Below, one piece after another: positions 2,068 through 45,711 of a DNA stretch of 64,000 nt. The number at the start of each line of letters is the position of its first letter. The stretch's first letter is position 1. This stretch comes from Sialis fuliginosa (lineage: Eukaryota > Arthropoda > Insecta > Megaloptera > Sialidae). Where the stretch lies: NCBI GenBank assembly GCA_961205875.1, contig OY540810.1, positions 29,388,001 to 29,452,000 of the forward strand. The letters are read 5' to 3'. The position numbers and the translations under genes are program-made. Under the pieces are notes generated by a model, which was given only the letters and a program-made list of their open reading frames with translations, was not told where the DNA came from and made no database searches.

Positions 2068-4679
2068 TTTGTAATGTTTTCTATCGCTAAGAACAGACTT
2101 GCACACATTATACAAAAATCTTATAAATCAACCATAACTGAACCACCACACAACAATTGTTTATGTAAAAGGGCATGCCAATTGTGTTATGTAACTACGA
2201 CTTGTCGCTTGACCTGTTTCCAACGAGAGATCACTTCTAATCTTATTCATTTATTAAAATTTAAAGGAAACAATCGTATATTATTTGCAAAAGGTTTTTT
2301 GAGAAGATAAGTTGTTAAAACGATTAAATGTAAGTTTTGTTGAGTACTTATTAGATTTTGATATTTTACTAGATTACAAATCATACCTACTATTGAAAAA
2401 TGTTTTTCTATTTCCCATTTAACTGTATGTTAATTAGACTTAATCGCCTTGACTTTTGAACTGATTATTTTAGCGCCAGTCTTGGATATGGTCCTAGTAA
2501 TGACTATGTTTTAATTAAATGTACTGAATTAGGAATATTTGTTGATATTTGATTACTATCATTTCCAAATATTAATCTATGTACATTTAGGTGTCAAAAT
2601 GGTGGACATTTCAAATAATTATTAGTATAATTTATTTATTAATTACATATTATATTATCATACCAACTGCTTTACATTGATTCAAATTTGACGATTCTTT
2701 CTTTTATATCTTTTGTGTCGTAGTATTTATCATTTTGTAATCATTATCAAGTGTTCATCACTGCGTGCTCATTACTGATTTTACTTTATCCATTACTGGA
2801 GATAAAACATAAACAAAATAAAAGGCTATAATTTAAAAAACAAACTATATCTGTGTACTTTGGTAATTAAATTGATTAAATAAAGAGTTACTTGTTTTAG
2901 TAGTAATATGAGTTCATGATAATTACAAAAAAGTAGCCCGTCAATCACAAAAACAGTAAACCTTGTTCTTATAGCGGCCATAACTGGTGCCAGTATCTTA
3001 TTTCCAAACAACTAATATGTGTATATTGTATATGTACTACAAATATAAAAATCTATAAATAAAATATTGAATTAAAAATATGTAAAATATATAATGTAGT
3101 GTTGTTGCCATTAATTCAGTATTAATTTATAAACTATACTGACAATGAATAGAATTTCGAGTTGGTCCTGTCAGTCATAAATCAAAATCGAAAATAATTT
3201 AATCACGTTCTGACTATTAAACGTCTAACGTGATAACGTAGCCAAAGATCTGCTATCGACACCGTGTGACTAGAATGTATAATTATTATTTAAAATAAAT
3301 ATGAACACTTGTGTGAGTATGATGTCTGAATTAAAATCATTACAGACAGTAACACTGTAGCTATAACTATAACCAATAGGATATGGAGGAATTTTCGCAG
3401 GGTTGAACAACAATAATACGTTTTAATGCTACTATACTTTCAATTTAAACAAATCAAGTTATTTTAACATATCGTCATACCTGAATATTTGTTTGTTACA
3501 AGTCCACAAAATTACTTTTGTGGTAAACGAACTTTGAAAGTTTGAACAGCAATTATTTATAGATAAACGGACTTAATATAAACAATTATTGGTGATATGA
3601 AACCCAATCGTACTTTTTGTTACCTTCTGAATAGTAAAAATTATCAATTTTTAATAAAAATTAATTTTCTCTGCTTATCTCAACATTTTTCAAAAGTGGA
3701 CTTGTAAGAGACAAATATTCAGGTGACGATATTTGTCTTGTAAAAGCCAAAAAGGTTTAACGTAGACATTTTTTCCTATAATAATATTAAACATATTGAC
3801 TGTTAAGTGACTCAATTACTCAAAACACAATATCTAGAATGCTTCAAATAAGTTGTTAATTTAGAGAATAGTACCTACTATATTAATTTAATAATTTGTG
3901 TGAATGTAACATTGGATTTAATAGATTCTAAAGAATATAATATTCAGAAGAAAACCAGGAAATGTTAGTCGAAAAGTTAAGAATTATTTGTCATTGTAAT
4001 AAATAAATTGAAAATTATATTTGAATAAAACTATTGTTTTATTGAAGGTTTTTATATTAGGATTAAGCTTATAGTTTAATTTATAATTTAAACTGTATTA
4101 TGTAAAAATTTAAGCCTATGCAAGCCTTGAATAGTAATCGGGTCACATACAAACAGAGTTTGCATGAATGAATACCCACGTTTATGAATCAGAAAGTTTT
4201 ATCTATAAAAAGTGGATTTCTTAGTTTTTATAATCTATACTAGATTTGACGTATATTGACACGTTTTTGTTTTCTTAACATAATTGCACGCTTCATATTC
4301 TTCAGTTTTTACTTTAGAAAACATGTGTTTTCTATTATAAAACCGAAACCGAATTAGTAAACTGTTGAGTAATAAGGCTCAAACAAACTACAATGCCAAT
4401 TTTAATTGTCAGAATTGATAATAAATATTTTATGATTGGTATCATAAAGAATTAACTCTCGATCAAAATCGTACCAATTTTTTTTTGCAGGGTAGCGAAT
4501 TGCATCATGCAGTTTATGGATTTGGTCTGTGTAGAAACTAAATTGTGAAATATAAGACATATATCTATCGCATTACAAATTCATCGTAGAATGATTTTAG
4601 TATGATTTTACTTGCAATTCTTAAGAAAATTGAGCGGATGTAAGAATTAACACCATAAAACTCAAAAAAATATATCCGA
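2068..4679. other. Intergenic, AT-rich, no gene seen
   Basis: Nothing codes convincingly. A short repeat (GGCCATAACTGGTGCCAGTA region, about 2955-3005) has relatives near 660 and 40665. A degenerate copy of the GTATTATAAAGA repeat lies near 4437-4560. Confidence 0.45.
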
Positions 4680-18552: not shown

Positions 18553-18687
18553 ATGGGTGGATTAACGCAGCGACCATGGACCCCAACGAAACGTAGGGGC
18601 CCCATTGCGGCTGAGCACGCCAGTCCAGGACCGGCTTGCGTCACATTGCCCTCACTTATTGGAGGGAAAACTGCGCAAACTTCACAG
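18553..18687 (+). CDS. ODF3-like gene, coding exon 1
   Basis: This exon encodes residues 1-45, starting MGGLTQRPWTPTKRRGPI. It also holds a short SPGPA repeat, and it ends at CAG followed by a GTATAA donor, in phase 0. The ATG at 18553 is chosen because the family's conserved RP..P..RGPI block begins six codons later. The frame upstream of the ATG shows nothing conserved. A second ATG at 18575 is in another frame, so it is not the start. Confidence 0.85.
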
Positions 18688-21600
18688 GTATAACTAAAAA
18701 TTTTATTAAGACAATATTTTGCTATTACTATATTTTTACAACACTATTAATTTCAAAGAAAGAATATCGTCGTGTTAACAAAGAGTAATTTTTTAATTTT
18801 TCTGTTAAAATAACTTGTGTTTGGTCTCTGACAAATGCTAGGTTTTGTAAAAACGTTGAGTACATAAAAATTATGTTTTACTTAAAATTGTTACTACAGT
18901 TGTCCTTTTTTCAAATAGTTTTCCAATATTATCTACAAATGCTTTCAAATGTAAAAGCTGTTTTTTAATTAAGTGCTAGATTATTATAAAGCAAAATTTG
19001 GAAAAAATTTCAATAAAAAATTGTCGAAATAAAGACAAATATTAATATAGGTATTTACTTCGTGAACGAATAAATATATTTAAGTTTAATATTTAAACTA
19101 ACATTTTTATTAGTTTTTTATTATTTTTATTTTTGATTGCTTAGTTGTCCCGCGCACCCGCTTACACATTTGGTGGTCGACATGGTGACAAGACAGATAG
19201 CTTGGGTCCAGGTCCAGGTCAATACAATGTGACCGGTCTGAATGCCAAGGGGCGCGACAACCCTCCAGCAGCTAGTCTTCATGGACGTCATAAGGAGCTC
19301 AAGCCATTTAATACTCCTGCACCAGGCGACTACAACCCGGAGAAAGGGGCGATGGATGGATCTCCCTCGTACACATTCGGGCTGAAGCCTATTCACGACA
19401 AGCCCAGCGATACACCGGCTCCAAATGTTTATAATATACCGACTGTTCTTGGACAGACTAAAGAAGGTGAGTTAAATGTATTTTCTAATATTTTTTTGGA
19501 TTGGAATTTCATAAATTTTTCACAAAGTTAGTGTAGTAGTTAGTTTTTTTCATATAATTTTTTATTAGTAATTTGACATCAAAACAGAAATCGCCATTAT
19601 AAAATTTTGTTTAAATTGCTCTGAATGTTGTACAGTGGTTTATTAACTATTTAGTATGACATTAACAGACATTTGTTTGTACCTTTATAAAGCTCATAAA
19701 AAAACGTCTGCTAAGTAAATGCACAATGCTTCCTCGTGTTAAATTCACCAAAGGTAGTTAATTATTGAACAATTTAAATAAAAACCGGTAGTGTTCAGAT
19801 AAATTGCATGGCATTAGTTAAAATTTATGTAGGTAAACCTCAAAATGACATTTAATATGTCAAAGTAAATATCAATTTAAAAAAACAAAACACGATTTTT
19901 TAAAGCAAATTGAGATAAAATTGTAAAGGAATATTTAACAACAAACATTGTAGACCTATATTATAGAAAATTAGATGCTCTACAAAAAAGACTCTATATA
20001 ATATTTTCACGTAAAATGCGTCGTTCTTGAGATATCTTGAAAAAAATCATATTTTTGGATACCACCCCTCCCCCTTACACACGATTTTGATATAAGACCG
20101 TTCTCAAACCAGACCCAACCAACCAATCAAGTTTCAATAATATCGGTTCAGTGGTTCATGAGTTATGCGTGTGATAAGGATTCAGGGGACAGACACACCT
20201 ACAGATAGACAGACTCGAAAAGAAAAGATCAATTTAAAATTTTGTCTAGTTCTAAAACAACTACAAAGATTCTCGTATCTTTGAAATTACGAGAAAGCAA
20301 TTATACATTTTCTCGTAAAAAAAATTCAGCGAAAAATGAATGAAATTTCAATTTGCAAAAAGCATTGGGAAGTAAAAATTTAATCTTTTTTTATCGTTGT
20401 TTTTAACTTATTTATTATTGTTTAAAACTTTATCTAATCTTTATAATAATATTTCTTAATGCTCAATATTGCGAAATTTTGTTTTGTTTATTAAATTTCT
20501 TTTTTACTCTAGGTAACAAAAAAGCCGCACCGGCGTTCACAATGTCCGGTCGCCAGAAGGAGCCGATCGACGAGCGCGTGAAGACCCCCGGTCCCGGCGC
20601 GTACAACAACACCGTAGCCGATGGTGTGATCAAGCAGCGGTCTCCCGCGTTCAGCATCAGCGCCCGGTACACGCTGCCGTCCGACCACTCGCAGAAACCC
20701 GGACCCGGCGCTCACTCCCCCGAGAAGGTACGTTCAATGCTCGTGAGCAAGGTGACGTCTGCCTCTAGTACCACTACTACCCGCGCATATACTACCGCCA
20801 CTCACACTAACTACTAGTAGACTACTGCCCCCGTGTGACAGAGATAAGGTAGATCTATTTGTTGTTTATGTGTGTGTGTGTGTGAGTGAGAAGTACTGAT
20901 TTCGTAATAAGGATCGTTCAGATGCCAAAATAACTAATACTACATTCTTCATTTATGCCCTGTGTTACAAAGAATATGATTTAAACCAAAACCTTACTAC
21001 ATCAGACTATATATGAGAAGGTGAGTTCCAAAACTCGTTTGTTCCATTTAAAAAAAAAAATCTGTCATGGGAGCCACGAGACTTTCTTATAAGTAAATCA
21101 GACAGTGAACAGTGTACGCGATTTTTAATTTATTAAAACACATTTCTGACAAACTAGTAAAAGATAAAATAAAATGAATGGGACATAAAATATACCTAGT
21201 TAATATTATTCTCTACATTATATATGAAATGAATTTTTTGAATCTAATCTCTATTTTTGAAGTAAGAAAAATATGTTTTAGATAAAAAATATCGAGTATG
21301 TTATTATCCATAATTTATTTCCCATACATTTTTTCCAATATTTATGATATAGTCAGAAAGAATTTTTTTTTAATAAATGGGACGTTTTCTTCCCAGACAA
21401 AAATTAATCTAAAATATAAAATTTCATTCTTCTACGATTTGTCGTATTTGAGTAACAGCACTTATAGACAGACAGACAAACACACAGACATCATGGCGAA
21501 AATAGTCAGAATGGATTCAGGGAAGGTCAAAATGGATAATTCCATCAAAATCCGGAGTTCGAAAAAAATCGGCATCACTACACTGTATCTCGATTATTTT

Positions 21601-24600
21601 TTAAAATGGAACGAACGAGTTTTGGAACTCACCTCCTCATATATAGGTAGAATCTTATTCATTGTGCTAAATGGGTTATGGGTCATTCTATGGGAGATGA
21701 CACCTGACCAAGATAAATAAATTGTTAGAAATCACTTGAAATATTGTTAAAGTTCGAAAGTAGTGCGAAATATACAAATATTAAAAAAAATCATTTTTTA
21801 TATTTTGTCAGTTTAAAAAATGATTTTTACTCCAACCATGCTTGGTACATTTTTTTTGGTTAGGTTTTGGTCGAGACCATATTTAATATAATTCGGGCAT
21901 AAATGATTTTAATTTTTTGTTTCATATTTTCATTATTTTAGGAAATAGAAAAAGGTTAATGTAGTCAAATTGGCAAACGAATGTTTTATATAATAAATGG
22001 ATTAAATAGTAAATAGGCATAATTATTCTAGATATATGGTGTATTGCGAGATCAGTGGAGGGACGCTTGTTTTTTTCCACTAAACTGACAAAATCAAAAA
22101 CTCAATGTTTTTCAACCTGTTTTTAAATATTTTCAGTTTCCGTCAAATTGACTGTTCTTTTGAAGAAAAAATTTTTTTAGATAAAAATTGTCAGTTTGGT
22201 TGAAATACTGCTTAATAGAAATTAATTGATTCATACATAAGCCAAAGCAATTAAAAACATAACATTAACTTTATATACTATATAATATGAATAAAAACAA
22301 ACTTGTTTGTTTAAACGTCAAAAATTTATTAAAGAAAAGGTAACCGCAAGCTTTCGATTCACAGAATCATCGTCAGGCTAAAATATAATAAATAACAATT
22401 AAAAACAATTAATATAATGCAAAATATTGATATTTTAAAATAAAAATTCAGAAATATACCTATTAATAAAGATTTAAATTTTTAACTATTTGAGTTACTA
22501 AGAGATTTGTTATTTTTTCAAACATTTCCGTAGTCCCATGAATATTATTGAGATAACAACATCGTTCTCAAATTTAAATCTTTATTAATAGGTATATTTC
22601 TGAATTTTTATTTTAAAATATCAATATTTTGCATTATATTAATTGTATTTAATTGTTATTTATTATATTTTAGCCTGACGATGATTCTGTGAATCGAAAG
22701 CTTGCGGTTACCTTTTCCTTAATAAATTTTTGACGTTTAAACAAACAAGTTTGTTTTTATTTATATTTAACGTCACTACTATTATATTACTATATAATAT
22801 GTATACATTTCATAATTGGCATAACTTTTATCCTTAGTTTTATCAAAATCTCCTATTTGTAACAGCCATGTAAATCCCTATTTAATAAATGTGCACCAAG
22901 CTGTCAACTATTTGCTAATATAGATAAAAGAAAGACGAAGTCGAACATTAGCGATTGACAGTTTTTTTATAAAGGAATATATTTTAAGTTGATTGCTTTG
23001 GTTGCCAAATAACTTTTGTAGTGATAGTTTGAATAATTTCTTATTTAATTATGTAGTTCATGTTACTTTTTATTAAAAAAGAGGATACCATCATCAGGAA
23101 GAAGTAATTTATATTTATTTATTCATATAAGAAGTTATGAATCATGTAATTTAATTAATGAAATGTAATATATGTTTATATTTTATTAATTAGCTATGTG
23201 TTTTAGAAATAACTAAATTCTGATTTTCATGAAAATTATGCATGGAAATCAGTCAGCTAATTAACAAACATTAACTGTAATAACAATGATAATGATGATA
23301 GGTGACTGTGCACAAACGTACTGCGCCCGCGCATTCGTTTGGGATCAAGCACTCGCAGTACCTCGGCACCGCGACGGCTCACCTGCTCCACGAGCACCTC
23401 TAACTCACTAACCATCCTGTGTGTATGTCCGTCCGTCTAACTTATTGCTATCTAGTCTTCCTTTGTGCTGTTCGGTATGTTCTCCTACTTCTCTTTTCTT
23501 TGTTACTTATGCACTGCATAGGTGTCGATTTTTTTTGGAGAGATTAGATTAACTCTATTATTAAATAATTATTGGTTTCTGAGTGTAAGTCGTTTGTCAT
23601 TGTCTCCAGCCTTGGATAATGATTAAAACAATGTGGCTTATACACCCAGGTGTCAATTTTTTAAGTTTCCATAACCAAATATTATTATAATTTCTGCTGT
23701 AATTAATAATAGGTATATGTTTTAACAATACCCGAGAAAAAATAGATTAGATCTACATACGAAGATCTACACAGATCTACGTATATCTGTGTAGATCTAC
23801 GGAGATGTGCATTCATCGAAAAACCAAAGATGACCGAATGAAATTTTTGATTTACGTATACCTACATAGATCTATTCTAATCGACGAAGATCAAAATTTT
23901 GATCTAATTTGATATGCGTAGATCTAATCTATTGTTTCCCGGGTACTTATTGTTAGTTATTTATGCTCATCTCTTCCGTTAGTCGACGCCTATGCTATCT
24001 TGTGTTTACACCATGAGTTATTGTTGTCTTGCTTGATTATGTTAATTAAGTTATGAGTAGTTTTGTTTTATATTTGTGTTTGTTGTTTGTTATTAATTAA
24101 GTCAAATTTAACGAGTTAACTTTTTTATGTTATAATTATTTTAGTTGAAGGTGTATTTAATTAATTGGTCATTGTTTTTATTATTGCATTGTCTAGTTGT
24201 AATTATAGCCGTTTAGAACCCACATTGATAAATTCTATTAGTCGTTAATTTTCTAATAAATTGATAATACTTGAGTAACCTTAAACAAATTTACAGAATC
24301 ATCATTGTATTGGTTTCTAAATGGCACATTTTTGAAAAATAATCCATGGTGTATTTTTGCTAACATTACTATATTAAAACATATTTTTTATCAAGATAAA
24401 TTCTGATATATAGGTAGTGAATTTTTCATACATAGATGAATAAAAAAAAGTTTCTTCTTTGGCAATATAGCACAGAACTATAAGTAATAGAAACTTCGAA
24501 ATACAGTAGTATCTCGCAATAACGGCGCTGTTAAGTTTTATATTTCTATTACTTTTTCAGTTGTAAATCATGTACGTACGTATTAAATATACGAGTATTC

Positions 24601-25140
24601 AAAGGTAAATTTCCCTTTCTATCATTGTTTTATAGTTAGTGTTATTGTACACATAATATACATATATTAGTACACATATATAGTACGTAGTTTTGCTTGA
24701 ACAAGGCACTCGTGAGGCAGAAAAAAAGCTTTAATTCATTTACTGGCGTTTTTCAATTAACGGCGAGGGTCCGATCCCAATTACGCCGTTATTGCGAGGT
24801 ATTACTGTAGTTTTAAAATGTTTATTATTATTATGTAGTCTAGTATGAAATATGTATTCAAATAATTTCTCTGAATCATTTAATAGTTACGAAAAAATGG
24901 GAACAAATTTTAATATAAAAATGAAAATATTTAATAATTATTTAAAATTTTGATACGTAAACGTATAGATAAGTACTATATGTCATCAAATAGGAAAAGT
25001 ATATTAATCCACCCGGAACATTGAAATTTCTGATTGTTTATTAATAATTGTTTATTTCTACTCTGTTCCAGAATCTACAGGACTATACGCCAGCACATAC
25101 ATTTGGTATTAAACATTCTGTCTACTCTAATAATTATTAA
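18553..25140 (+). CDS. ODF3/CIMAP1-like SHIPPO-repeat protein, whole gene
   Basis: This four-exon gene encodes a 257-residue protein (135+322+215+102 coding bases), close to the usual ODF3 length of about 250. Members of this family (outer dense fiber protein 3 / ciliary microtubule-associated protein 1) bind axonemal microtubules of sperm flagella and cilia. Seen directly: an N-terminal RPWTPTKRRGPI block like the family start, PGPG-type repeats around residues 66-72, 102-108, 135-141, 177-183 and 214-220, a GAHSPEK motif at 218-224, and a terminal FGIKHSQY. All introns are GT-AG, with phases 0, 1 and 0. A second last exon at 25072-25140 gives a 246-residue alternative product. Introns carry several transposons (21007-21646, 22290-22788, 23730-23944, 24504-24807). 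A testis-biased role is inferred from the family, not shown here. The Drosophila homologues are several, so no single orthologue symbol is given. Confidence 0.92.
19145..19466 (+). CDS. ODF3-like gene, coding exon 2
   Basis: This exon encodes residues 46-152 plus the first base of codon 153. The acceptor is TTGCTTAG at 19144 and the donor is GTGAGT at 19467. It holds three SHIPPO-like units: LGPGPGQYN, TPAPGDYNPEK and TPAPNVYN. Each is followed by a YTFG or similar strand-forming motif, as in ODF3 proteins. An open frame on the opposite strand over the same bases is a shadow. Confidence 0.93.
19700..20190 (-). repeat. Dispersed repeat, copy in ODF3-like intron 2
   Basis: It is about 490 bp and matches 46802-47325 in opposite orientation. 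Shared landmarks include CATGAGTTATGCGTGTG, AAATTGAGATAAA, GACATTTAATATGTCAAAGT and the GCACAATGCTTCCTCGTG segment. It is a non-coding repeat of unknown class. Confidence 0.7.
20513..20727 (+). CDS. ODF3-like gene, coding exon 3
   Basis: This exon completes codon 153 and encodes residues to 224, ending PGPGAHSPEK. The acceptor is TTTACTCTAG and the donor is GTACGT at 20728, leaving phase 0. It contains two SHIPPO repeats, TPGPGAYNN and KPGPGAHSPEK. Codon third positions are strikingly G/C-rich compared with exon 2 and with the distal last exon. The frame stays open for another 29 codons past the donor to a TAG at 20815. Open frames on the - strand here are shadows. Confidence 0.93.
21007..21646. 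mobile_element. Inverted-repeat MITE GAGTTCCAAAACTCGTT, copy 1
   Basis: The arms CTATATATGAGAAGGTGAGT and ACTCACCTCCTCATATATAG continue inward through CCAAAACTCGTT. It lies in the third intron of the ODF3-like gene. The 140-codon frame starting at 21298 falls inside and just past it and shows no transposase motif. A shorter copy is at 31759-31923. Confidence 0.78.
22290..22788. mobile_element. Penelope-like palindromic retroelement remnant
   Basis: Two arms of about 188 bp (22293-22480 and 22571-22757) are near-perfect inverted copies around a 90-bp spacer. The 13-bp duplication ACTATATAATATG flanks it (22277-22289 and 22789-22801). Each arm carries CTGACGA, a GATTC-TGT-GAATC hairpin and GAAA, which is the order of a hammerhead ribozyme core. 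The right end AACGTCACTACTATTATATT recurs in the element at 28875. Penelope-like identity is inferred from the hammerhead-like core, variable-length duplication and inverted structure. No reverse transcriptase is present. Confidence 0.6.
23302..23403 (+). CDS. ODF3-like gene, proximal alternative last exon (4a)
   Basis: This exon encodes 33 residues beginning VTVHKRTAPAHSFGIKHSQY and then a TAA stop. In ODF3 proteins the segment after SPEK reads VT...(A)P..(T/S)FGIKHS.Y, so the match is clear. The exon is in phase 0 with exon 3. The acceptor is weak: the bases before AG are purine-rich (aatgatgatag) with almost no polypyrimidine tract. A possible ATTAAA poly(A) signal lies at 23622-23627. This exon gives the 257-residue isoform. 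Confidence 0.88.
   Translation: MTVHKRTAPAHSFGIKHSQYLGTATAHLLHEHL
23622..23627 (+). terminator. Possible poly(A) signal for last exon 4a
   Basis: An ATTAAA hexamer lies about 220 bases after the stop of the proximal last exon. No AATAAA is closer. In DNA this AT-rich such hexamers are common by chance, so this is a suggestion only. Confidence 0.25.
23730..23944. mobile_element. Palindromic MITE between the alternative last exons
   Basis: The inverted arms ACCCGAGAAAAAATAGATTA and TAATCTATTGTTTCCCGGGT flank repeated AGATCTAC units in both orientations. It is about 215 bp and non-coding. TA lies at both edges. Confidence 0.75.
24504..24807. mobile_element. pogo/Tigger-like MITE in the ODF3-like intron
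   Basis: The ends are CAGTAGTATCTCGCAATAAC and GTTATTGCGAGGTATTACTG, with TA on both sides. It sits between the two alternative last exons. Confidence 0.82.
25072..25140 (+). CDS. ODF3-like gene, distal alternative last exon (4b)
   Basis: The 22 codons read NLQDYTPAHTFGIKHSVYSN and then NY-stop, a diverged copy of the C-terminal motif in exon 4a (PAHSFGIKHSQY). The acceptor (TTTCTACTCTGTTCCAG) is strong and in phase 0, so exon 3 can splice here without a frame change. Its codons are AT-rich, unlike those of exons 3 and 4a. An AATAAA at 25557-25562 could serve as its poly(A) signal. It is most likely a mutually exclusive alternative last exon that arose by exon duplication. A decayed relic is less likely, because frame, splice site and motif are all intact. 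Confidence 0.75.
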   Translation, partial: NLQDYTPAHTFGIKHSVYSNNY

Positions 25141-27408
25141 TTTTGTATTTTATTTCATCACAAATTGCGTTAGCTGCCTGTCACTCTATAAACAAGCGGT
25201 TTCTAACATTTTATGACTCGAGAGAAGCAAAATATATACACTCATAACTTGTTGAGAATCACTGATCTAGAGTAACGTGATAAAACTTTTTGAAAGCTTT
25301 TTTTTTAATCTTGCCAATCATTAACAAACTCAAAAGCTTGTCGGTATAGTTCCTTATACTGTTTTTGTGGATTTTTTTTATGTTTGGATATAAAACGACA
25401 ATTAAAATTTATTGATTGAATATTTTATATTTATTGTTCAGTAGTTAATATTTTGATTGCTAATATTTACAAATGTTGCTATTATATATTTTAGTCAGGG
25501 CCGTTAAAATTGTTTTAAGATATAGATTATATTTATATACTAAAATATAAAATTTTAATAAAAAAATGAACGATTTTTTTTTACATATTAATTATATTTT
25601 ATTATTATTTTTAGTTTTTCTATGTTTAAAAGGTAAGGTGAAAAACAAAACTTCATTTGCATTTTCATTTTTCTATTTTGTGATTAACATAAATATATGT
25701 ATAATAATAAAATACATGTATACGAGTTCAAAAATGAAAATAATTTAAAAAAAGTCATTAAAGTCATTGGGAGTAAATTATCATCTAGATTGACTACATA
25801 AATATACCCACATTACCCACTCCTACGTTCATCTCGTCAATCTTTATCTTCTTTATGATTAATTTTTACACGTGAGATTTTTTTTAATATTGAAATCGAT
25901 TTTATTTTAGCGAGTTGATGAGTAAATTCCTTAAAAAGTCCTCGTCTCTAAAGGTTATTTGTAGCTTGATGATATAAATTTATCGCATTAGCGAATGTAC
26001 ACTGTATAATTGTATCCAATTATATTTATGTAATTAATTATAACATTTCATTTTGAATGAAAGAAGTTCTGTGCATAGATCTCATAAAGTTGTTCTTATA
26101 CAATTTCTAAGGCCGGTCCTGGCTATATGAGTAGGTTATAATGAAACATCGAGTAATATATTCTTTATTTAACATTTATTGCGACGGTTTTTATATTTTT
26201 TATAATTTTTACACACTTATATCTACATACAGAAGGCTTGATTCGTACAATAATAAAACAATGATTAATGTACACTGTTAAAAAATATATATCCGTAAAA
26301 ATATCAGTGTAATACAAGAAATTGAAAATGATTTTAGGGTAGGTAATATTTTATATATTTTAGTATAGTTAATTATATAAAGAAGAAATGTCAGAGATAA
26401 AAAAATGTTTTTCAATTTAATGACAAATAAATAAGATTGAATTTTGATATTCTGGTACTTTTAGAATTTGAATTAGGCGTATTTGATATATAATGTAATG
26501 TAATCGATTTAGACTTTTATACAATTTTTTAACAGTGTAATCTTTTAGATTTCTTACATAGTAGTTTAGCACCTCTATCTGGATATTTCCATATTATTCT
26601 ATTAACATAAATAAATACATTTCATGATCTAACAATTTATGTTACAATTACCATTAAAAATACAAATTTTTATTGTTATCTTGAGAGGAATATAACAGTT
26701 TGATGTATGGTATTATAAACAACGAATAAATAAAATTAAATAAGTAAACTAACTCAATTAAATACAATTGAAATAACATTGTTCTTACACATAATCTTAA
26801 TAATTTTTGGTAATATATCGATATTTTACTTTTTAGAATTTTTATAATACTTGGGAGCTTTTATCGTACAGTTAGTTATTCGTAGATTTATTCGTCGTTT
26901 TTAATACCAGACATGTACAAATAAAATAATTTGTTAAACACAACTGTACACAGAACACTAATAAAGAATAAGTGTTAGTAATTTATGTTTTTTTTATTTT
27001 ATAAATTTAGAAAAAATGTAAGAGTAAGTATGAATTTCTTATATATTATTATAGATCTTATAAATTTCAGAAAAACTGTATATGAAAATAATTCTATTAG
27101 TGGTTATCTACAACAATTACTAGGGCTACAATTTTTGTACAGTCTTTCAAACTGATTCACATAGTAAAATTGATTCTAAATATCTATTTTGTAAATATTT
27201 AGCAAAGAAAATTTTCAATTGAGTGGTTTTATTAATTGAGCTATCCGGAGGATAAAGTCATTAACTACATATTGATTTTTTTTGAAATAAGAATATCAAT
27301 CAACTGTTTCTTTTGTGGAAATAGTTCTTTGGACATCTGAATAACACATTTCAAAAAAGTCATTTTCAAAAGTGGCAGTGTTGGATAAAATATATTATAT
27401 AACATATA
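25141..27408. other. 3' flank of the ODF3-like gene, no further gene seen
   Basis: Very AT-rich, with many AATAAA/ATTAAA-like words and no coding signal. GGCCGGTCCTGG near 26112 resembles a lone hAT end. Confidence 0.45.
25557..25562 (+). terminator. Possible poly(A) signal for last exon 4b
   Basis: This AATAAA lies about 415 bases after the stop of the distal last exon, in an A/T-rich stretch. Chance occurrence is likely enough to keep confidence low. Confidence 0.3.
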
Positions 27409-34481: not shown

Positions 34482-34943
34482 TTAGAAAAGAGTTTCCTGT
34501 GAACGCGCTGCCATTTCGATATTGTTCAAAGACACAGTTCTCCCTGCTCTCCTGCAAGCGGCATCGCGTTCAGACAACTGTATTACCGACGGCACTTGAC
34601 TGGTCAACGTCTTTTCCGAGGCGTCATTAGACGCGTTCAGTCTTGGCGCAGTTACAGTTGTTACGTTCGAGTAGAAAGAAGATCCCGGAACAAGGAGACT
34701 GTTACAGTTGAGGAGATGGAATGACTTGGAGATCTTCATCGGTTTGGGCTCCGTGGTTTTAGTCTCCTCTTTACGGCGTACCGGAGGTGCGCTGGCACGT
34801 CGTCGCCACGCGTGCTCTTCTTTGGTTGTGTTATTGGTTTCGTCTTCCTCAACCTCCTCCAGAGTGCAGCTATCGTCGTTTTCGTCTTCTTCATATTCTT
34901 CGTCTTCCTCGTCTATTTCGCTGTCAGTGCTGAACTGGGTGAT
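34482..34943 (-). CDS. Membrane-protein gene, last exon E (acidic block, ETLF end)
   Basis: The acceptor is TTCACCGTAG, and 153 codons run to a TAA. The exon opens ITQFSTDSEI and moves into a block that is mostly Glu and Asp, then an Arg-rich WRRRASAPPVRRK segment. A Ser/Thr/Asn-rich tail ends QETLF. The last residues fit a class I PDZ-ligand pattern (T at -2, hydrophobic at 0), which is an inference. The + strand frame at 34708-35073 is a shadow of the acidic block. Confidence 0.85.
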   Translation of the reverse strand: MTQFSTDSEIDEEDEEYEEDENDDSCTLEEVEEDETNNTTKEEHAWRRRASAPPVRRKEETKTTEPKPMKISKSFHLLNCNSLLVPGSSFYSNVTTVTAPRLNASNDASEKTLTSQVPSVIQLSERDAACRRAGRTVSLNNIEMAARSQETLF

Positions 34944-37900
34944 CTACGGTGAAGTTATTATTATTAGAGTTATAAAAAATTATAATCATTGGTATATGGA
35001 AGTGTTTCCTAAACTTAGGACTGGATTAAGTATTATAATTTATTCGTGGGTCAATAGTCTTCGTTTACATTAAATATTCGTGGACAGTTTTGTTTGGAAA
35101 TTTTCACCTTCTCAGCGATTGAGAAAAACATACTTTCAAAATATAAAAAATTTTGAAATGAACAAAGAAATCAATAAATGATTTTGTAGGACTTTACGAG
35201 TAATCAGCTCTACAAATTAGAGTTAATTGTAATCCAAATATAGTTGCAGTCCGGATGTAGTACGTGGGCTGGCCTTTGAGTACGCTTGGTCGATAATTAT
35301 AAATTATACTCTTACAAGAATTATAAAAGTATTAAGCCTAATTTACATGAGACAAGCACTCGGTCGAGCACCAATATTGACCGAGTAAACGTCTACTTGC
35401 ATTCTATTCGCTGGCCCGAGTGTTCCCCCCCCACTGGAATTACAGTACATTCTAGTGGGGGGTTTAAACCGCCAGCCGAGTACAGTACAGTACATTTTAG
35501 TGGAGTGGGGGTGGGGAGGGGGGGATAGCACTCGGTCCAGTGAATAGAAACGGGTTTTATTCACTCGTTCGCTCATTTCACTCGTCTGATCTCTCAGTAC
35601 AGTACTGTGTGTTTAGATTGGTCAAGTACTCGACCCAGCTTACTGTCTCGGACAAGTGCTCGTCCCATATAAACTAGGCATTACAAACGAACCTCATCAT
35701 CCGTATCTGGCCCCTCGTCAACAAACACTGAATCTGAACCGAATGTGTGTGCCTCGATTTCGTGCGAGCAGTCGAGCGCTGAGCTGGCGCAACTACTGAT
35801 TGTGGCAAGCGGTGCTAGTCGTTGGGGCACTGCCAAGCCTACCACTCCCACAGGACCTACAGGATCGTTGTACAGGGTACGCTCGCTACCGCACGGTGAT
35901 GCATCTGGTGTAGGTTGGATCACCTGTAGAAAAATATAAATACTTGTCATAATATGGAACACAGTAGATGTATTCAGGGTGGTATATTTTCTCAGTATGA
36001 TACAAGTCGTCGAAATGCCGCCCCTTAAATGTTTTTTTTTTAAATAACCTTTGCTTGTGATTTAAAAAAAATTGCACAAAAAGTACGAATACTATTTGTA
36101 TTTTGAAAATATAAACAACTTTAAAATAATGATATCAATGATCAACTACAACAATCTACTACAGTTTTATCCTTTTATAACTTTAACTTTAGCAAATTCG
36201 TTAATTATGGATGTGTAGTTTAGAGTGGCAGTCAATGTAGATTCAATAGAAATTAAGGACAGATTTCTAAATTTTGTTTTAGTACAGTTAGGTTTTAATA
36301 AGGAAAAATGGAAAGAAAAGAAATACCTTCTGAAATGGCCTCAGAAATAATTAATCTTTAAGAAACCGAAGAATCCCTAGTCGGTACTGGGGAGCTTTAG
36401 CCAGTATTTTGATTTAAAGTGGGGCGCGCCAAATAAGCGACGAAGCTAGTGTTGATTTTGATCACTTACCGGCTTATCGTGTTCTACAAGCAAAGTTTAT
36501 GAAAATCGGATAATATATGTATGAAAATCGGATAATATATGTATGTCTCATATAATGTCAACATGTAATTTTTTTAATTATGAAGGAGGGAAACTATCCA
36601 TAAACAGCTTTGAACGGTCGCATATTGCTAATGCTTTAAAAAATAGATTGGTTTTTCTAGTAGGTTATATTTACTATTGTTCATATGGGCAGGCCCGGAC
36701 TTAGAAATTTGCCGCCCCTAGGCAGTTGCAAAAATTGCCCCCCCCCCCCCCCCCCCCTCGAAACTAACAGTTTAAGTCATAGATGTCAAAATATAAAACT
36801 CAGGATCATTTTTTTTTGGTTGCGTCAGTTTCAAATTTTGTAAATTTTTATCAAGTTACATTAGGAAACATAAAAACTGAATACCTTTTTTATTTTTTTG
36901 TCATGCTTGAGTTACATGTATCAGAGTTGGGCATCAGACGATTAATTTTTTTAGTCGATTGAAAAATTGACGAATAACGAATAAACCGCACATTATTCGC
37001 AACTAACGAATAAAAATATAGTTATTCGTAATCACGAGTACTCACGAATAACGATTGATTAGTTTTTATTCGTAAGATCTTCGATTAACGAATAATCATT
37101 CGTTAGTTTCAGATTTTTCTAACTAAAAAAATACGAATAAACTATTACTACCTGTACTTTGGCGTAATAATATAATTATGATGCATGATGGGGGTTATTG
37201 TCACTTCTTGAATTAATTTTTTTTTAAGTCCAGTCACGTATTTAGTGATATTTTAGACCCGTATTGTTAAAATAACAAATAATACACATATACTAAATAG
37301 AAACCTTGCTTATAATTTAATAAATTAAAAAAAAATTGTACAGAAGAGTATTGAGTGATATTTGAGGCCCGTGTATTAAATTAATTAATAAACTCACAAC
37401 TCGCCCCCTGTCACAGATGAAGGGTTGCAACTGGTTTCATTCGATCCGGCGGGAAAAATACTTCGGGATTCTAGGGGATTGGGGGGCAAAACAACCCTCT
37501 ATCTAGCACAGGAGTCGAGATATTTACGATTTTCTGTAATGAATACCATAAGTAGCGAAACAGAAAATTTCAATATTTACAATAAATACAGCATAGAAAC
37601 ATAAGATATTATTATTAAATTTAATAAAATGAAAAAAAAGTACAGACACGTATTTAGTGATATTTTAGGCCCGTATTGTTAAAAGAACAAATACACATAT
37701 ACTAAATAGAAACCTTGCTTATAATTTAATTAATTTAAAAAAATTGTACAGAAGCGTATTAAGTGATATTTGAGGCCCGTGTATTAAATTAATTAATAAA
37801 CTCACAACTCGCCCCCTGTCACAGATGAAGAGTTGCAACTGGTTTTATTCGATCCGGCGGGAAAAATACTTCGGGATTCTAGAGGATTCTATTAAATTAA

Positions 37901-40900
37901 ATAATAATATCTTATGTTTATATGCAGTATTTATTGTAAATATTGAATTTTTCTGTTTCGCTACTTATGGTATTCATTACAGAAAATCGTAAATATCTCG
38001 ACTCCTGTGCTAGATAGAGAGTTGTTTTGCCCCCCAATCCCCTAGAATCCCGAAGTATTTTTCCCGCCGGATCGAATGGAACCAGTTGCAACCCTTCATC
38101 TGTGACAGGGGGCGAGTTGTGAGTTTATTAATTAATTTAATACACGGGGGTCTAAAATATCACTAAATACGTGTCTGGACTTAAAAAAAAATTAATTCAA
38201 GAAGTGACAATAACCCCCATCATGCATCATAATTATATTATTACGCCAAAGTACATGTAGTAATAGTTTATTCGTAATTTTTTAGTTAGAATAATCTGAA
38301 ACTAACGAATGATTATTCGTTATTCGAAGATCTTACGAATAAAAACTAATCAATCGTTATTCGTGAGTACTCGCGATTACGAATAACTATATTTTTATTC
38401 GTTAGTTGCGAATAAGAACTGCGATTTATTCGTAAATTTTTATTCGCAATCACGATTGAATTTTGCCCAACTCTGACATGTATAGAGAAATTATTGCTTA
38501 TGGGTTGAAATTTTTACGTCTCGATTTTCGGATGGCAAACTCATCGATAATGGAATCAAAATCAAATTCAATTCCCACGAATATAACAAGTTTTCAAAGT
38601 TTCCACCAATATTTGCCGCCCTTCAATTCTTGCCGCCCTAGGCAGCTGCCTACTCTGCCTACATGGTAAATCCGGGCCTGCATATGGGGATATTAAGTAG
38701 TATTTTGTCAATTTTAATTTGGAAAAACTTCTTTCCCCACTAGTTACAATGACAGGGAGTGTAAATAAAATTCCTAGAACTGCAACAGTATTCGGATACA
38801 AAGTAATTAAGTTATTTTGCTACAGATTATTTAAAACATTCAAAGATTTCAAAGAACATTATAAAAAAGTGCTGCGTAAAGATTTTTAATTATTGAATGG
38901 TTCAAATTGTCATTTGATTTCGTTGCTTATGCCGTCTTTCTACGGTGCTGCCTGACGTGACTGCCTCTCTGTGTCATAGCACAGTACGGCCCTGGATGTA
39001 TTTATTTAAACTTTGATCGTTATGAAATTTAAGGTCTCAAGAATTCTAGATTTTAGATTATTATTAATGGATGAAAAAATATCATAAAAATATGTATGTT
39101 TGGCTGCTGCTATCTTAAAAGTTTGATTATCACTGGTGTAATGTTTTATAATATATTATTGATCAATATGTGTTAAAAATAACAGAATATGGATTCAGTA
39201 AAGGAAAAATAATGTATATTGAAGAATAACAAGATAAAATAATATTTCAATAAACTAATACAAGAAAAAAAAATGTTACTAGGCAATTTGTTCCTACAAA
39301 GTGCTGAATTGTGTTTATGTTATTTATAGATTGCGCGTTGTATTGAACGTATCTACATTATTATCTAACATAACACAAATGTCGAACATACTTACGACAA
39401 CTAGATTATACAGAGATTAGAATTGATTATATAATTTACTAATAACAATAATTGTTTCTTGCCATTTTTCTGCCCCATTTTAATTTCCCCAAGTCAATAT
39501 CTTGAAAACTAAGTAAGATGGTGAAAAATGTTTTGGTTCAAGTTATAGCATTTCAAGGTGGATATGTATTATTGCTATGGATTTTTATAATTCATAGGGT
39601 CTTATAAAATCGTAAAAAATTGATGTTTTCTAAAAAAATGTTTATTACAAAAGTTACGTATTTTTTCCCGTAGATTACGAATTAACGTTACCATTTGAAA
39701 AAAAATGCTACCCTATAAAACCTCAATAAACAATAAAAACCCATAGCAATAATAAATGTCCTCCTCGAAATGCTACAATTTTCGTCTAAAACATTTTTTA
39801 CCATCTTGTTTAGTTTTCGAAATATTGGCCTGGGGAAATTAAAAGGGAGAACCCGGTACATTGTTGCAATATCATTTAGGCAAAAATATGCATTTTAATA
39901 ATTTCAAAATCTATAACCTGTATATCAATGGGGTAGTAGAATTCCCAGCTGCACTTATCGGCCGAGCTCCTGCGTCTATTAGCCGATGGCAAGAGCGGTG
40001 GCGGCGGTAGTGAAGTGATCGCGGATCCTCGCCGCTCCAGGTACGAACTCTCAGAGCTGGAGCACGTGATGTTGCTACAACGTCGACTCGCTGCGCGTCT
40101 GTGTACCGCCAGGTAATGCAGATCGTCAACGAACTCGTCAAACGTATCGCCGTCTTCGGATACCATGTTACCGACGCCGGGAGCTACAACTGTTTAATGA
40201 ATTATAACAACTAACGGCCAAGAGAATTGATCATTTATAAACATACTTTAGAAGAATATTTGGGAAATATTTTTTTTAGTAACTAGATATTTGTTTTTTC
40301 TAAAAAGTACTATTGTACCAAAATGATAACGTATTAAATTGAAAACAACTAACCGCACACGAAAAAAAGTGGGAAATCCAATATTTCCTTTCAAATGAGG
40401 TATCACTTGCCCTATCATGCTATTTAAAATTTTAAGGGTTGTGCTCATAGCGTAGAGGGTTGAAAAGATTCTTGCAAAAATTGTATTGCCTTGAAAGCAA
40501 AATCGACGCGTTCGAGCGTTTTTACAAAATCTTATTTTAATTGACCAAAAACTCGACCGTTTCGTTTTCGTTGCGCCACCCTGTATATTAATATTCAGAA
40601 ATGGTAGTAATCAAGTATTAACAAATATTTCTAATTCAGTAGATTATAGATTAAAAAATAGCCATGACTGGGGTCATATTCAAGACTGATGTCAGTACCT
40701 TATTTAAATTGAGTTAGCTTGACAAAATTTAATGAAGACATCTTTATAAATATGCTTATATAAATAAAGCTTAAATTTTTAATAAAAAAAGGTATAACAC
40801 ATTCATTACTGTACATTTTTTTATATTTTACAACATTCAATGTCTGTCATACTTTTGTGGATATAACAAACATTAAGTATTCATAATTAAAACATTTTCG

Positions 40901-43900: not shown

Positions 43901-45711
43901 GATATAGTAAAATATATAACACATATATATACCACATAGCTTTTCAATGCTGGAAAGCTAAATATTAATAACTTATATTAAATATTTTTCTTTTATATAT
44001 GTACATCATAAATTTAAAAACCATTTTTATTTTTATTTATTTTATTCTATCTAACAGCCTACAAGCATCTCCAATACAACAAAAAAATACTTACCATCAC
44101 ATGGATACTCTTGGTTACATTCGATTGTAAGGAAAACGTAGAGAAAAATTCAATTATTTGAGTATTCTAGTAAATAGAACGAACATATCGGTATTTTGGA
44201 GTAAATTGCATTTTTACGGTGAATAATTGGCACTACTTCAATGTTAACAATAAATTACTGAATATTTGGCAAAGCTATTACAAAAAATCAATCAATAGAA
44301 CGTAGCTGTTTGTATTATTTTCAATTAGTTTTGTTTAAGTGACGATAATGGAGCATAAATGATTGCAGAATCATATTTTACTGACTCAGTCAGCGTGACA
44401 AAGTTTATTATAAAAAAGATGATTCGCACTAACACAGATTCTTTTATATTTCAGCCATAGAGATAGTATCATATAGAGCAAGTGAGCCATAGCATTTTAT
44501 TAAGTGGACACCAATCATAAATAATAAGAGAAAGCGATATTTCGTCAATTTCGTGTACTTGTGTCTTTCTCTTTTGACGTATTCTTAAATCTTCTTTAGA
44601 TAATGGCGTAAAATCATCTCTATGGAAACATGCATTGTTTCACAAAGATAGATAAAGGTCCACAGTTTTTTTTTCTATTTCTACCGACAGTTATTGTTTC
44701 CAGCTGTCTCACTTTCTCTATGTCATATTAATTCTATGATTTTAGCACGTAGATCACGAGAATATCGTATAAATTTGTATTTAATACAGATATGTATACA
44801 AAAATTACAAGTTCTGCTCGACGTTCAAAGCTAAATGTTATAAAATAACTTATAAAATACATATTAAACATTTTTGTCTGGATAAAAACACCTAAACTAT
44901 AGATAGATTTGGATCCAGTGGCAGACTAAGGAAGATTGGCATCCGGGGCAGAATATTAAATATGCACCCCCCTCAATTGCCAGTGAATGACCATGTTCTA
45001 TTTTTGCGCACTCCTGCAGTTTATGAGGACCATTTCTTTTTTCAGTCCTCGTGTCACTTTTCAATCATCATCAAGCTTTTCTACCTTATTTTGGCACCCA
45101 GGACGCCCCCCCCCCCCCTAGTGCATCACTGTATGTATCTGTTTTTTTTGTTTGGGTATATAAAAGTTTTTTGAACATATTAGTATAAAAAATAGTAGTC
45201 TCTAGTTCCATTCTGTGATTTTAAAGACATATATATATATATTTTCCCATAAAATAAATAAATTGAAATCTAATATCCTCGGCATCTCGTTTGAGAATCA
45301 CTGCTCTAGACTCAAGATAATATTAATATTATTAATGTAATTTTTGCCTAATTAAATGTTACTTAATGAAACTGACCTGTAAGGCGAGTTCCTCCTCTTC
45401 CATATCAGCCTCTTCTTCGGCGACGGCTTCGGCCGCGACCGCCGCCAAGTGTGGGTCGTTGAGCGCTTTCTGGGTCTTGGACTTGGACTTGCAGACGATG
45501 AGGACAATCATTAGGCCGAAGAAACCGCCGAGTGTCGCTGCGATCCGTATACCGGTCATGACGTCGTACGTCGCGTAGAACTCGATCTTGTCCCGCTCGC
45601 GCTGACTCAGCAGCGGAGCGGTCGGTTTCGGGGGCGCCAATGTCGAGGCGGCGCTGCCCCGGATCGACGGCACCGTCGGTTTCATACCGGCCCTGTTGTA
45701 ATGGCCGGCTT
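34482..45711 (-). CDS. Unrecognised single-pass membrane protein gene (3' five exons)
   Basis: Five exons join in frame on the - strand (335+223+272+231+462 bases; internal junction phases 0, 1, 0, 0). They encode 506 residues up to the TAA at 34482. The first exon seen begins with two bases of a split codon, so at least one 5' exon is missing. Counting from the first internal Met (45685), the chain has 498 residues. One hydrophobic span lies at about 46-65 (IRIAATLGGFFGLMIVLIVC), followed by a basic KSKSK stop-transfer. An Ala/Glu-rich stretch follows at 81-103, then Ser/Arg/Pro-rich low complexity with basophilic kinase-like sites (RRRSS, RRRAS), an acidic block near 352-380, and a C-terminal ETLF. 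I infer a type I plasma-membrane or endomembrane protein with a cytoplasmic tail. I do not recognise the family and assign no function. Confidence 0.8.
35335..35680. mobile_element. Harbinger-like MITE next to a splice donor
   Basis: The arms are AGCCTAATTTACATGAGAC and GTCCCATATAAACTAGGCA, with TTA on both sides. The interior is GC-rich with repeated GTACAGTA and CACTCGGTC units and a G-run block near 35507-35524. It lies in the last intron of the - strand gene and ends 12 bp from the exon D boundary. Small open frames on both strands inside it are not genes. Confidence 0.82.
35693..35923 (-). CDS. Membrane-protein gene, exon D
   Basis: Seventy-seven codons run from VIQPTPDASPCGSERTLYND to VDEGPDTDDE, in phase 0 at both ends. 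The acceptor is TTTCTACAG and the donor is GTTCGT. The donor lies 12 bp from the end of a MITE (35335-35680) inserted in the following intron. No domain is recognised. Confidence 0.85.
36300..36681 (-). pseudogene. hAT transposase relic, downstream part
   Basis: This is the piece downstream (on the - strand) of the element inserted at 36690-38680. Only a short degenerate continuation can be seen: after the target site the frame reads two residues and hits a stop, and other frames hold fragments. Its left edge is not determined; a hAT-end-like GGGGCGCGCCAAATAAG occurs near 36420. It is inferred to belong to the fragment at 38682-38810. Confidence 0.4.
36690..38680. mobile_element. hAT MITE, outer member of a nest
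   Basis: The ends are CAGGCCCGGACTTAG and TAAATCCGGGCCTG, with the perfect 8-bp target duplication CATATGGG at 36682-36689 and 38681-38688. Without the nested element it would be about 430 bp. The left arm holds a run of 19 C; both arms carry GCCGCCC(C)TAGGCAG. An 8-bp duplication and a CAGGCCCGG end are typical of hAT. Confidence 0.93.
36922..38475. mobile_element. hAT-type palindromic element nested inside another hAT MITE
   Basis: The ends CAGAGTTGGGCA and TGCCCAACTCTG are flanked by the perfect 8-bp duplication ACATGTAT (36914-36921 and 38476-38483). The arms are long inverted repeats full of ATTCGTTA-type motifs. Inside, a block of about 410 bp is present twice in direct order (from about 37235 and 37647) and partly again inverted (about 37930-38185). 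It has no coding capacity. Confidence 0.92.
38682..38810 (-). pseudogene. hAT transposase relic, dimerisation motif
   Basis: On the - strand the frame reads LYPNTVAVLGILFTLPV and then TSGERSFSKLKLTKYYL, the conserved C-terminal hAT motif found in ZMYM/TTF-type hAT transposases. It is cut at its downstream end by the insertion of the element at 36690-38680. No intact upstream transposase is present. Confidence 0.8.
39468..39855. mobile_element. Palindromic repeat near exon C
   Basis: The arms TTTTAATTTCCCCAAGTCAA and GGCCTGGGGAAATTAAAA continue through AAGATGGT...ACATTTTT and GAAATGCTA motifs to the centre near 39655. It lies in the intron after exon C, 62 bp from that exon. Confidence 0.65.
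39918..40189 (-). CDS. Membrane-protein gene, exon C
   Basis: The exon completes the split Ile codon and encodes VAPGVGNMVSEDGDTFDEFV onward for 90 residues, ending EFYYPIDIQ. The acceptor is ATTAAACAG and the donor is GTTATA. It contains an acidic EDGDTFDEFVDDLHYL helix-like patch, Arg/Ser clusters (RRAASRRCS, RRRSSADK) and a PPPPLLP motif that could bind SH3 or WW domains; this last point is inference. The Met at 40166 is internal. Confidence 0.85.
41105..41678. mobile_element. hAT MITE with GGTTCGGG arrays, copy B
   Basis: The ends are CAGGGACTTGG and CAAGTCCCTG, with the same GGTTCGGGTTC arrays at both ends. The flanks resemble each other (TAATAAG) but are out of register, so the duplication is imperfect. 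It lies in the first visible intron of the - strand gene. Confidence 0.82.
42593..42815 (-). CDS. Membrane-protein gene, exon B
   Basis: The exon encodes 74 residues (AALEATAAWTTAARAARASR onward) plus one base of the next codon. The acceptor is TTTTTCAG and the donor is a strong GTAAGT. It is GC-rich in an AT-rich setting and is found by joining frames. The composition is Ala/Arg/Ser/Pro/Gly, suggesting a disordered cytoplasmic tail. It ends FPRDH, and the split Ile codon joins it to exon C. Confidence 0.82.
42962..43290. mobile_element. Harbinger-type MITE, family TGCCCGG, copy 2
   Basis: The ends TGCCCGGTATTATAAAG...CTTTATAATACCGGGCA are perfect, and a TTA duplication lies on both sides (42959-42961 and 43291-43293). 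The element is 329 bp and non-coding. It lies in the first visible intron of the - strand gene and is the best-preserved copy. Confidence 0.9.
44456..44738. mobile_element. Degenerate inverted-repeat element
   Basis: The left arm CATAGAGATAGTATCATATA and right arm TATGTCATATTAATTCTATG match loosely, continuing through GAGCAAGTGAG/CTCACTTTCTC and AGTGGAC/GTCCAC. It is about 283 bp and non-coding. Confidence 0.5.
44916..45131. mobile_element. Short hAT-like MITE
   Basis: It begins CAGTGGCAGACTAAGG and ends CCCCCCTAGTGCATCACTG. The terminal CAGTG match and C-rich right arm are usual for hAT MITEs. The flanks (TTTGGATC, TATGTATC) are only similar. The open frame at 44962-45174 overlaps it and is not a gene. 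Confidence 0.55.
45377..45711 (-). CDS. Membrane-protein gene, exon A (transmembrane segment)
   Basis: The acceptor (ATCGTTTCAG) precedes 45711 and the donor (GTCAGT) follows 45377. The exon starts with two bases of a split codon and then AGHYNRAGMKPTVPS. It continues with a Pro/Ala-rich linker, the charged SQRERDKIEFYATYD, the 20-residue hydrophobic span, and a tail rich in Ala and Glu ending EEEELALQ. The Met at 45685 is open in frame on both sides, so it is probably internal. An overlapping + strand open frame (45366-45578) is a shadow. Confidence 0.85.

Follow-up and report, generated by a model that had tools for sequence, protein, structure and literature searches.

Insects possess two motile-type axonemes, one in sperm and one in chordotonal neurons. 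Published work places CIMAP1 proteins close to the outside of the doublet in every mammalian motile cilium that was examined (PMC11779644), and binding of PG motifs to consecutive tubulins is described for Tetrahymena (PMC10105768). For the fly gene CG8086, listings exist in the ear, both for mechanosensory and cap cells (PMC10898740) and in transcriptome tables (PMC7198581), and in a testis phosphopeptide table (PMC10224340); the splice isoforms of CG17150/DNAH3 differ between chordotonal neurons and sperm (PMC6367277). Where Drosophila genes have alternative last exons, testis tends to use the proximal exon and neurons the distal one, by way of ELAV/Hu (PMC9470587, PMC8055025). Alternative last exons with coding ends are well known and, as gene regulation, ordinary; for the CIMAP1/ODF3 family, no description of them was found in the literature searched, which took in few subscription papers or genome annotations, and automatic annotations may already list such isoforms. 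Here we describe a CIMAP1/ODF3 (SHIPPO-repeat) gene on the forward strand of a 64,000-nucleotide stretch of the Sialis fuliginosa genome (assembly GCA_961205875.1, contig OY540810.1, positions 29,388,001 to 29,452,000; this whole 64-kb stretch is called the window below). The gene probably carries mutually exclusive alternative last exons, termed 4a and 4b, that arose by an old duplication of its terminal exon.

The gene model comprises three exons upstream of the two candidate last exons, each of which has its own 3' splice site:

18553..18687, plus strand: exon 1, coding part, from the start codon to the donor CAG/GTATAA (45 codons); its N-terminus aligns with CIMAP1/ODF3 chains from residue 8
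19145..19466, plus strand: exon 2, SHIPPO (PG-rich) repeats, 322 coding bases
20513..20727, plus strand: exon 3, SHIPPO repeats, with a phase 0 end in ...PGPGAHSPEK and the donor AAG/GTACGT
23282..23301, plus strand: weak 3' splice site of 4a (AACAATGATAATGATGATAG), the last three bases of which, TAG, are an in-frame stop
23302..23403, plus strand: putative alternative last exon 4a, encoding VTVHKRTAPAHSFGIKHSQYLGTATAHLLHEHL and a stop; taken as the ancestral end, which the best ODF3 chains match gap-free at their C-termini
25052..25071, plus strand: strong 3' splice site of 4b (TTATTTCTACTCTGTTCCAG)
25072..25140, plus strand: putative alternative last exon 4b, encoding NLQDYTPAHTFGIKHSVYSNNY and a stop; recognized by its frame, AG, stop and similarity to 4a

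The coding parts of exons 1 to 3 add up to 135 + 322 + 215 = 672 bases (224 codons), so that exon 3 ends in phase 0 at 20727, as the original prediction, made from the letters of this DNA, had proposed. That prediction had also named 23302 and 25072 as phase 0 acceptors and had read in both exons a version of FGIKHS.Y followed by a stop; an AG precedes both positions, the frame continues from each to the exon's own stop, and the two translations carry the motif, all of which agrees with it. Two last exons are thereby accessible in frame from the single exon 3 donor, each with its own stop, and the resulting isoforms would be 257 amino acids long with 4a and 246 with 4b. Because a TAG lies just before 23302, 4a cannot extend further upstream in this frame. 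The peptides that tell the endings apart are TAPAHSFGIK and HSQYLGTATAHLLHEHL for 4a, and NLQDYTPAHTFGIK and HSVYSNNY for 4b.

The gene is a member of the CIMAP1/ODF3 family, as seen from its PG repeats and from a near full-length match that includes the C-terminal FG[IV]xHSxY. Six stretches in each isoform match PF07004, the sperm-tail PG-rich repeat (cut-off 20 bits), with an E value of 7.8e-30 and 102.2 bits for the 4a isoform and of 7.3e-28 and 96 bits for the 4b isoform. The best match in the Protein Data Bank (PDB) was 8snb, an ODF3 chain, to residues 8-245 of the 4a isoform (E 2.3e-50) and residues 8-243 of the 4b isoform (E 1.3e-42); six distinct PDB sequences were matched by each isoform, and all were ODF3/CIMAP1. 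We take 8snb, 8iyj and 8otz to be chains from sea urchin, mouse and cow, respectively; the matches themselves give molecule names only. A text search of the literature for the terminal motif found no paper.

Part of the evidence for a duplicated exon lies in the manner in which 4a and 4b differ. The two align over 14 codons, in which change has saturated the synonymous sites (9.5 changes at 10 sites; proportion of synonymous differences, pS, 0.95), whereas 6.5 changes are seen at the 32 replacement sites (proportion of replacement differences, pN, 0.20; Fisher test 5.4e-6 on rounded counts). Replacement changes so far below synonymous ones indicate constraint on this core at the protein level. 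We also ran a neutral simulation that started from the 12-codon core of 4a and introduced AT-biased changes until 12 of its 36 bases differed, as observed. The observed identity, 10 of the 12 residues, was retained in 0 of 200,000 runs, 49.7% of which gained a stop. Saturated synonymous sites accompanied by few replacements argue against 4b as a dead copy. As to chance, translating the window in six frames yields the pattern FG[ILV][KR]H exactly twice, in 4a and in 4b. Among 60 windows of 64 kb simulated with a first-order Markov model, this looser pattern was found 12 times and FGIKHS 0 times; a chance open reading frame was rejected on these counts.

Which of the two exons came first can be judged from their tails. 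No gap is needed to align the 4a tail, VTVHKRTAPAHSFGIKHSQYL, with VTVNKRMAPKFSFGVPHSQYT of 8snb or with two CIMAP1A chains. The 4b tail keeps P-A-H-x-F-G-I-K-H-S-x-Y without the conserved VTVxK leader and without two residues, and aligns with the two PDB chains displayed only if a two-residue gap is allowed. Local alignment scores against three ODF3/CIMAP1A C-termini were 74, 64 and 61 for 4a and 38, 46 and 42 for 4b, and among eight pieces compared with 4b the closest was 4a (score 58), the next scoring 46. Because 4a aligns gap-free, scores higher against the family and is the piece closest to 4b, we read 4a as the ancestral end and 4b, most simply, as a copy of 4a. Derivation of 4b from an internal SHIPPO repeat is less likely, in that exon 2 (38) and exon 3 (21) score below the 58 of 4a. 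Flanks common to a recent duplication did not stand out among the eight direct-repeat families of at least 30 bases found between 18400 and 26100, which were AT-rich pairs of 70-83% identity. In searches of the species' own genome, covering 392,097,322 bases in 20 contigs and giving match counts that are lower bounds, the 4b tail matched at least three places, namely parts of exons 2 and 3 in addition to 4b; the search missed 4a, so further diverged copies may escape it.

The two acceptors differ sharply in strength. We measured the pyrimidine fraction at -20 to -4 and ranked it among the 2837 AGs on the plus strand of the window. The 4a acceptor has a fraction of 0.29 (3rd-9th percentile) and the 4b acceptor one of 0.82 (99th percentile and above), which upholds the earlier view of the proximal site as weak and of the distal site as strong; the acceptors of exons 2 and 3 have a fraction of 0.76 (97th-99th percentile). 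The GC-rich codons claimed for 4a and the AT-rich codons claimed for 4b were likewise recovered when G or C at third codon positions (GC3) was counted: 26/33 in 4a and 5/22 in 4b, with 21/45 in exon 1, 47/107 in exon 2 and 58/71 in exon 3. The GC content of the flanks is 28.5% around 4a and 25.2% around 4b. The codon use of 4a resembles that of exon 3, and the codon use of 4b resembles the background; this may mirror how strongly each exon is used. Along the gene as a whole (18553-25140), GC3 stands at about 80% in exon 3 and 4a, at 44-47% in exons 1 and 2 and at 23% in 4b, amid AT-rich surroundings.

The alternative that survives best holds that only 4a is used and that 4b is a relic of the duplicated exon, decaying or rarely spliced. 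AT-rich codons like those of the flanks (25% GC) would suit such a relic, as would the missing VTVxK leader and the two missing residues, but its acceptor is strong (99th percentile) and 10 of 12 core residues have stayed identical while synonymous sites became saturated, with none of the neutral runs alike; we regard this alternative as unlikely. A second alternative, in which this species uses only 4b and 4a is being lost through decay of its acceptor, draws on the place of that acceptor in the bottom tenth of AGs for pyrimidine content. It is made very improbable by the GC3 of 4a, which is high like that of exon 3, by the gap-free agreement of its ancestral sequence with the best ODF3 chains, and by its intact AG and stop.

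The two last exons would be mutually exclusive only if splicing does not continue from the first to the second. We scored donors with an approximate consensus matrix, in which the exon 3 donor reaches 6.04 (the 99.6th percentile of GT sites in the window), the exon 2 donor 8.35 and the exon 1 donor 0.12. With this approximate matrix, no donor scoring above 5 was found in 4a and about 600 bases beyond it, or in 4b and 160 bases beyond it, and splicing on from 4a to 4b appears unlikely. The candidate polyadenylation (poly(A)) signals are as follows:

23560..23565, plus strand: candidate poly(A) signal ATTAAA for 4a, unproven, with a second at 23622
25401..25406, plus strand: candidate poly(A) signal ATTAAA for 4b, unproven, with an AATAAA at 25557 that is followed by a T-rich stretch

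Such hexamers are frequent here (AATAAA 2.4 per kb, ATTAAA 1.9 per kb). Least probable of the alternatives is a single mRNA that holds both exons, with 4a internal and supplying the stop and 4b in the 3' untranslated region: the exons do share a strand, and of the 118 GTs that separate them ten equal or exceed the score of the weak exon 1 donor, but these ten reach at most 3.28, against 6.04 for exon 3 and 8.35 for exon 2, and neither a low pN nor a kept frame is expected of an untranslated 4b.

Several points nevertheless weigh against mutually exclusive last exons serving two axonemes. The core of 12-14 codons was chosen for its similarity, and the p-value for constraint is therefore too favourable. 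The ten GTs just described, though the best of them falls short of the exon 3 donor, are weak donors lying between 4a and 4b, and they weaken the case for mutual exclusion. Given the weak 4a acceptor and the low GC3 of 4b, one of the ends may be used only rarely. Downstream of the two poly(A) candidates closest to 4a, the T fraction is 0.39 and 0.41, against 0.36 in the window; with so little T enrichment, the ELAV route of neural distal last exons, by which 4a would be bypassed, finds no clear support. Mouse ODF3A is counted among the microtubule inner proteins, as opposed to the outer position (PMC10663601); the status of CG8086 as the fly counterpart rests on the tables of the papers, and one table assigns CG10252 to Odf3l2 (PMC10898740); and three genes in fly testis switch in the opposite way, from proximal to distal, so that the tissue rule has exceptions (PMC9470587, PMC8055025).

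The original prediction of a duplicated, mutually exclusive terminal exon thus holds in its first part, since the exon is present in two copies that could each serve as an end (both retain their frame, AG and stop, and pN is far below pS), and is reduced in its second, where weak donors between 4a and 4b leave mutual exclusion likely, on weak ground. We infer that both ends are expressed, giving two axonemal isoforms. Our model of mutually exclusive ends would run as follows. The last exon of a CIMAP1/ODF3 gene was presumably duplicated long ago, and exons 1-3 would now be joined either to the proximal 4a, with the ancestral ending, or to the distal 4b, whose shorter ending retains the FGIKHS.Y core. 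As no clear U-rich mark follows 4a, we let the choice of last exon rest on acceptor strength; the choice would be exclusive and set by competition between the weak proximal and the strong distal acceptor. The protein would lie on doublet microtubules as an extended strand of PG repeats, and the final contact of this otherwise identical strand with tubulin or with a neighbor might differ between the two endings. More speculatively, one isoform could serve sperm and the other the chordotonal (mechanosensory) cilium. The fly rule of proximal ends in testis and distal ends in neurons would assign 4a to sperm and 4b to neurons. We put forward only tentatively that one CIMAP1 gene yields a sperm form and a chordotonal-cilium form that differ in the last microtubule contact, two motile-type axonemes being tuned by the choice of last exon and not by separate genes.

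The intron that separates exon 3 from 4a holds other features. A near-perfect fold-back at 22284-22767 has two 198-base arms that are 98% complementary and 88 bases apart; it could form a long pre-mRNA hairpin, and an effect of that hairpin on the choice of last exon is speculation. In the same intron, 53-base inverted repeats at 21007-21646 (92% complementary, 534 bases apart) flank what looks like a small mobile element. Elsewhere in the window, minus-strand reading frames at 34482-34943, 35681-36061, 39876-40193 and 45359-45739 encode protein-like sequences of 105-153 amino acids with no Pfam match above the cut-off, and are possibly exons of other genes. Rfam gave 0 matches in the window.

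In the genome searches, exons 1, 2, 3 and 4a were located on contig C2, and 4b was found by a separate search. Searching with PF07004 gave at least seven matches, five of which exceeded the cut-off (three on C2, in this gene, and two on C12), with at least two below it (one on C12 and one on C1). The contig C12 carries a second SHIPPO-repeat gene (L012, about 3659-4498), the reading frame of which ends in FGVRHTPCEAQLILPDDNFPC; within the 9 kb examined there, no second FG[ILV][KR]H was found. Relatives were also sought by pattern scan in the viral_contigs and genome_contigs collections (viruses and prokaryotes), where 8 and 42 pattern matches, respectively, included 0 that were confirmed.

Set beside the described systems, the Sialis gene has in common with animal CIMAP1A/ODF3, CIMAP1B and CIMAP1C the PG repeats and the FG[IV]xHSxY ending, and differs from them in its 4b ending, which is shorter and without the VTVxK leader. 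CG17150/DNAH3 resembles it as an axonemal gene with cell-type isoforms produced through splicing, but encodes a dynein heavy chain and not a PG-repeat protein. The Drosophila alternative last exons are like those proposed here in having proximal and distal exons with their own stops (PMC9470587, PMC8055025). The two ends in Sialis are homologous copies of one another, without a clear U-rich bypass signal after 4a. If both ends are used, the locus would offer a natural experiment on the CIMAP1 C-terminus at the doublet microtubule, with two endings, and possibly two axonemes, for an identical protein body, and would parallel, at the level of splicing, the gene duplications behind mammalian CIMAP1A, B and C.

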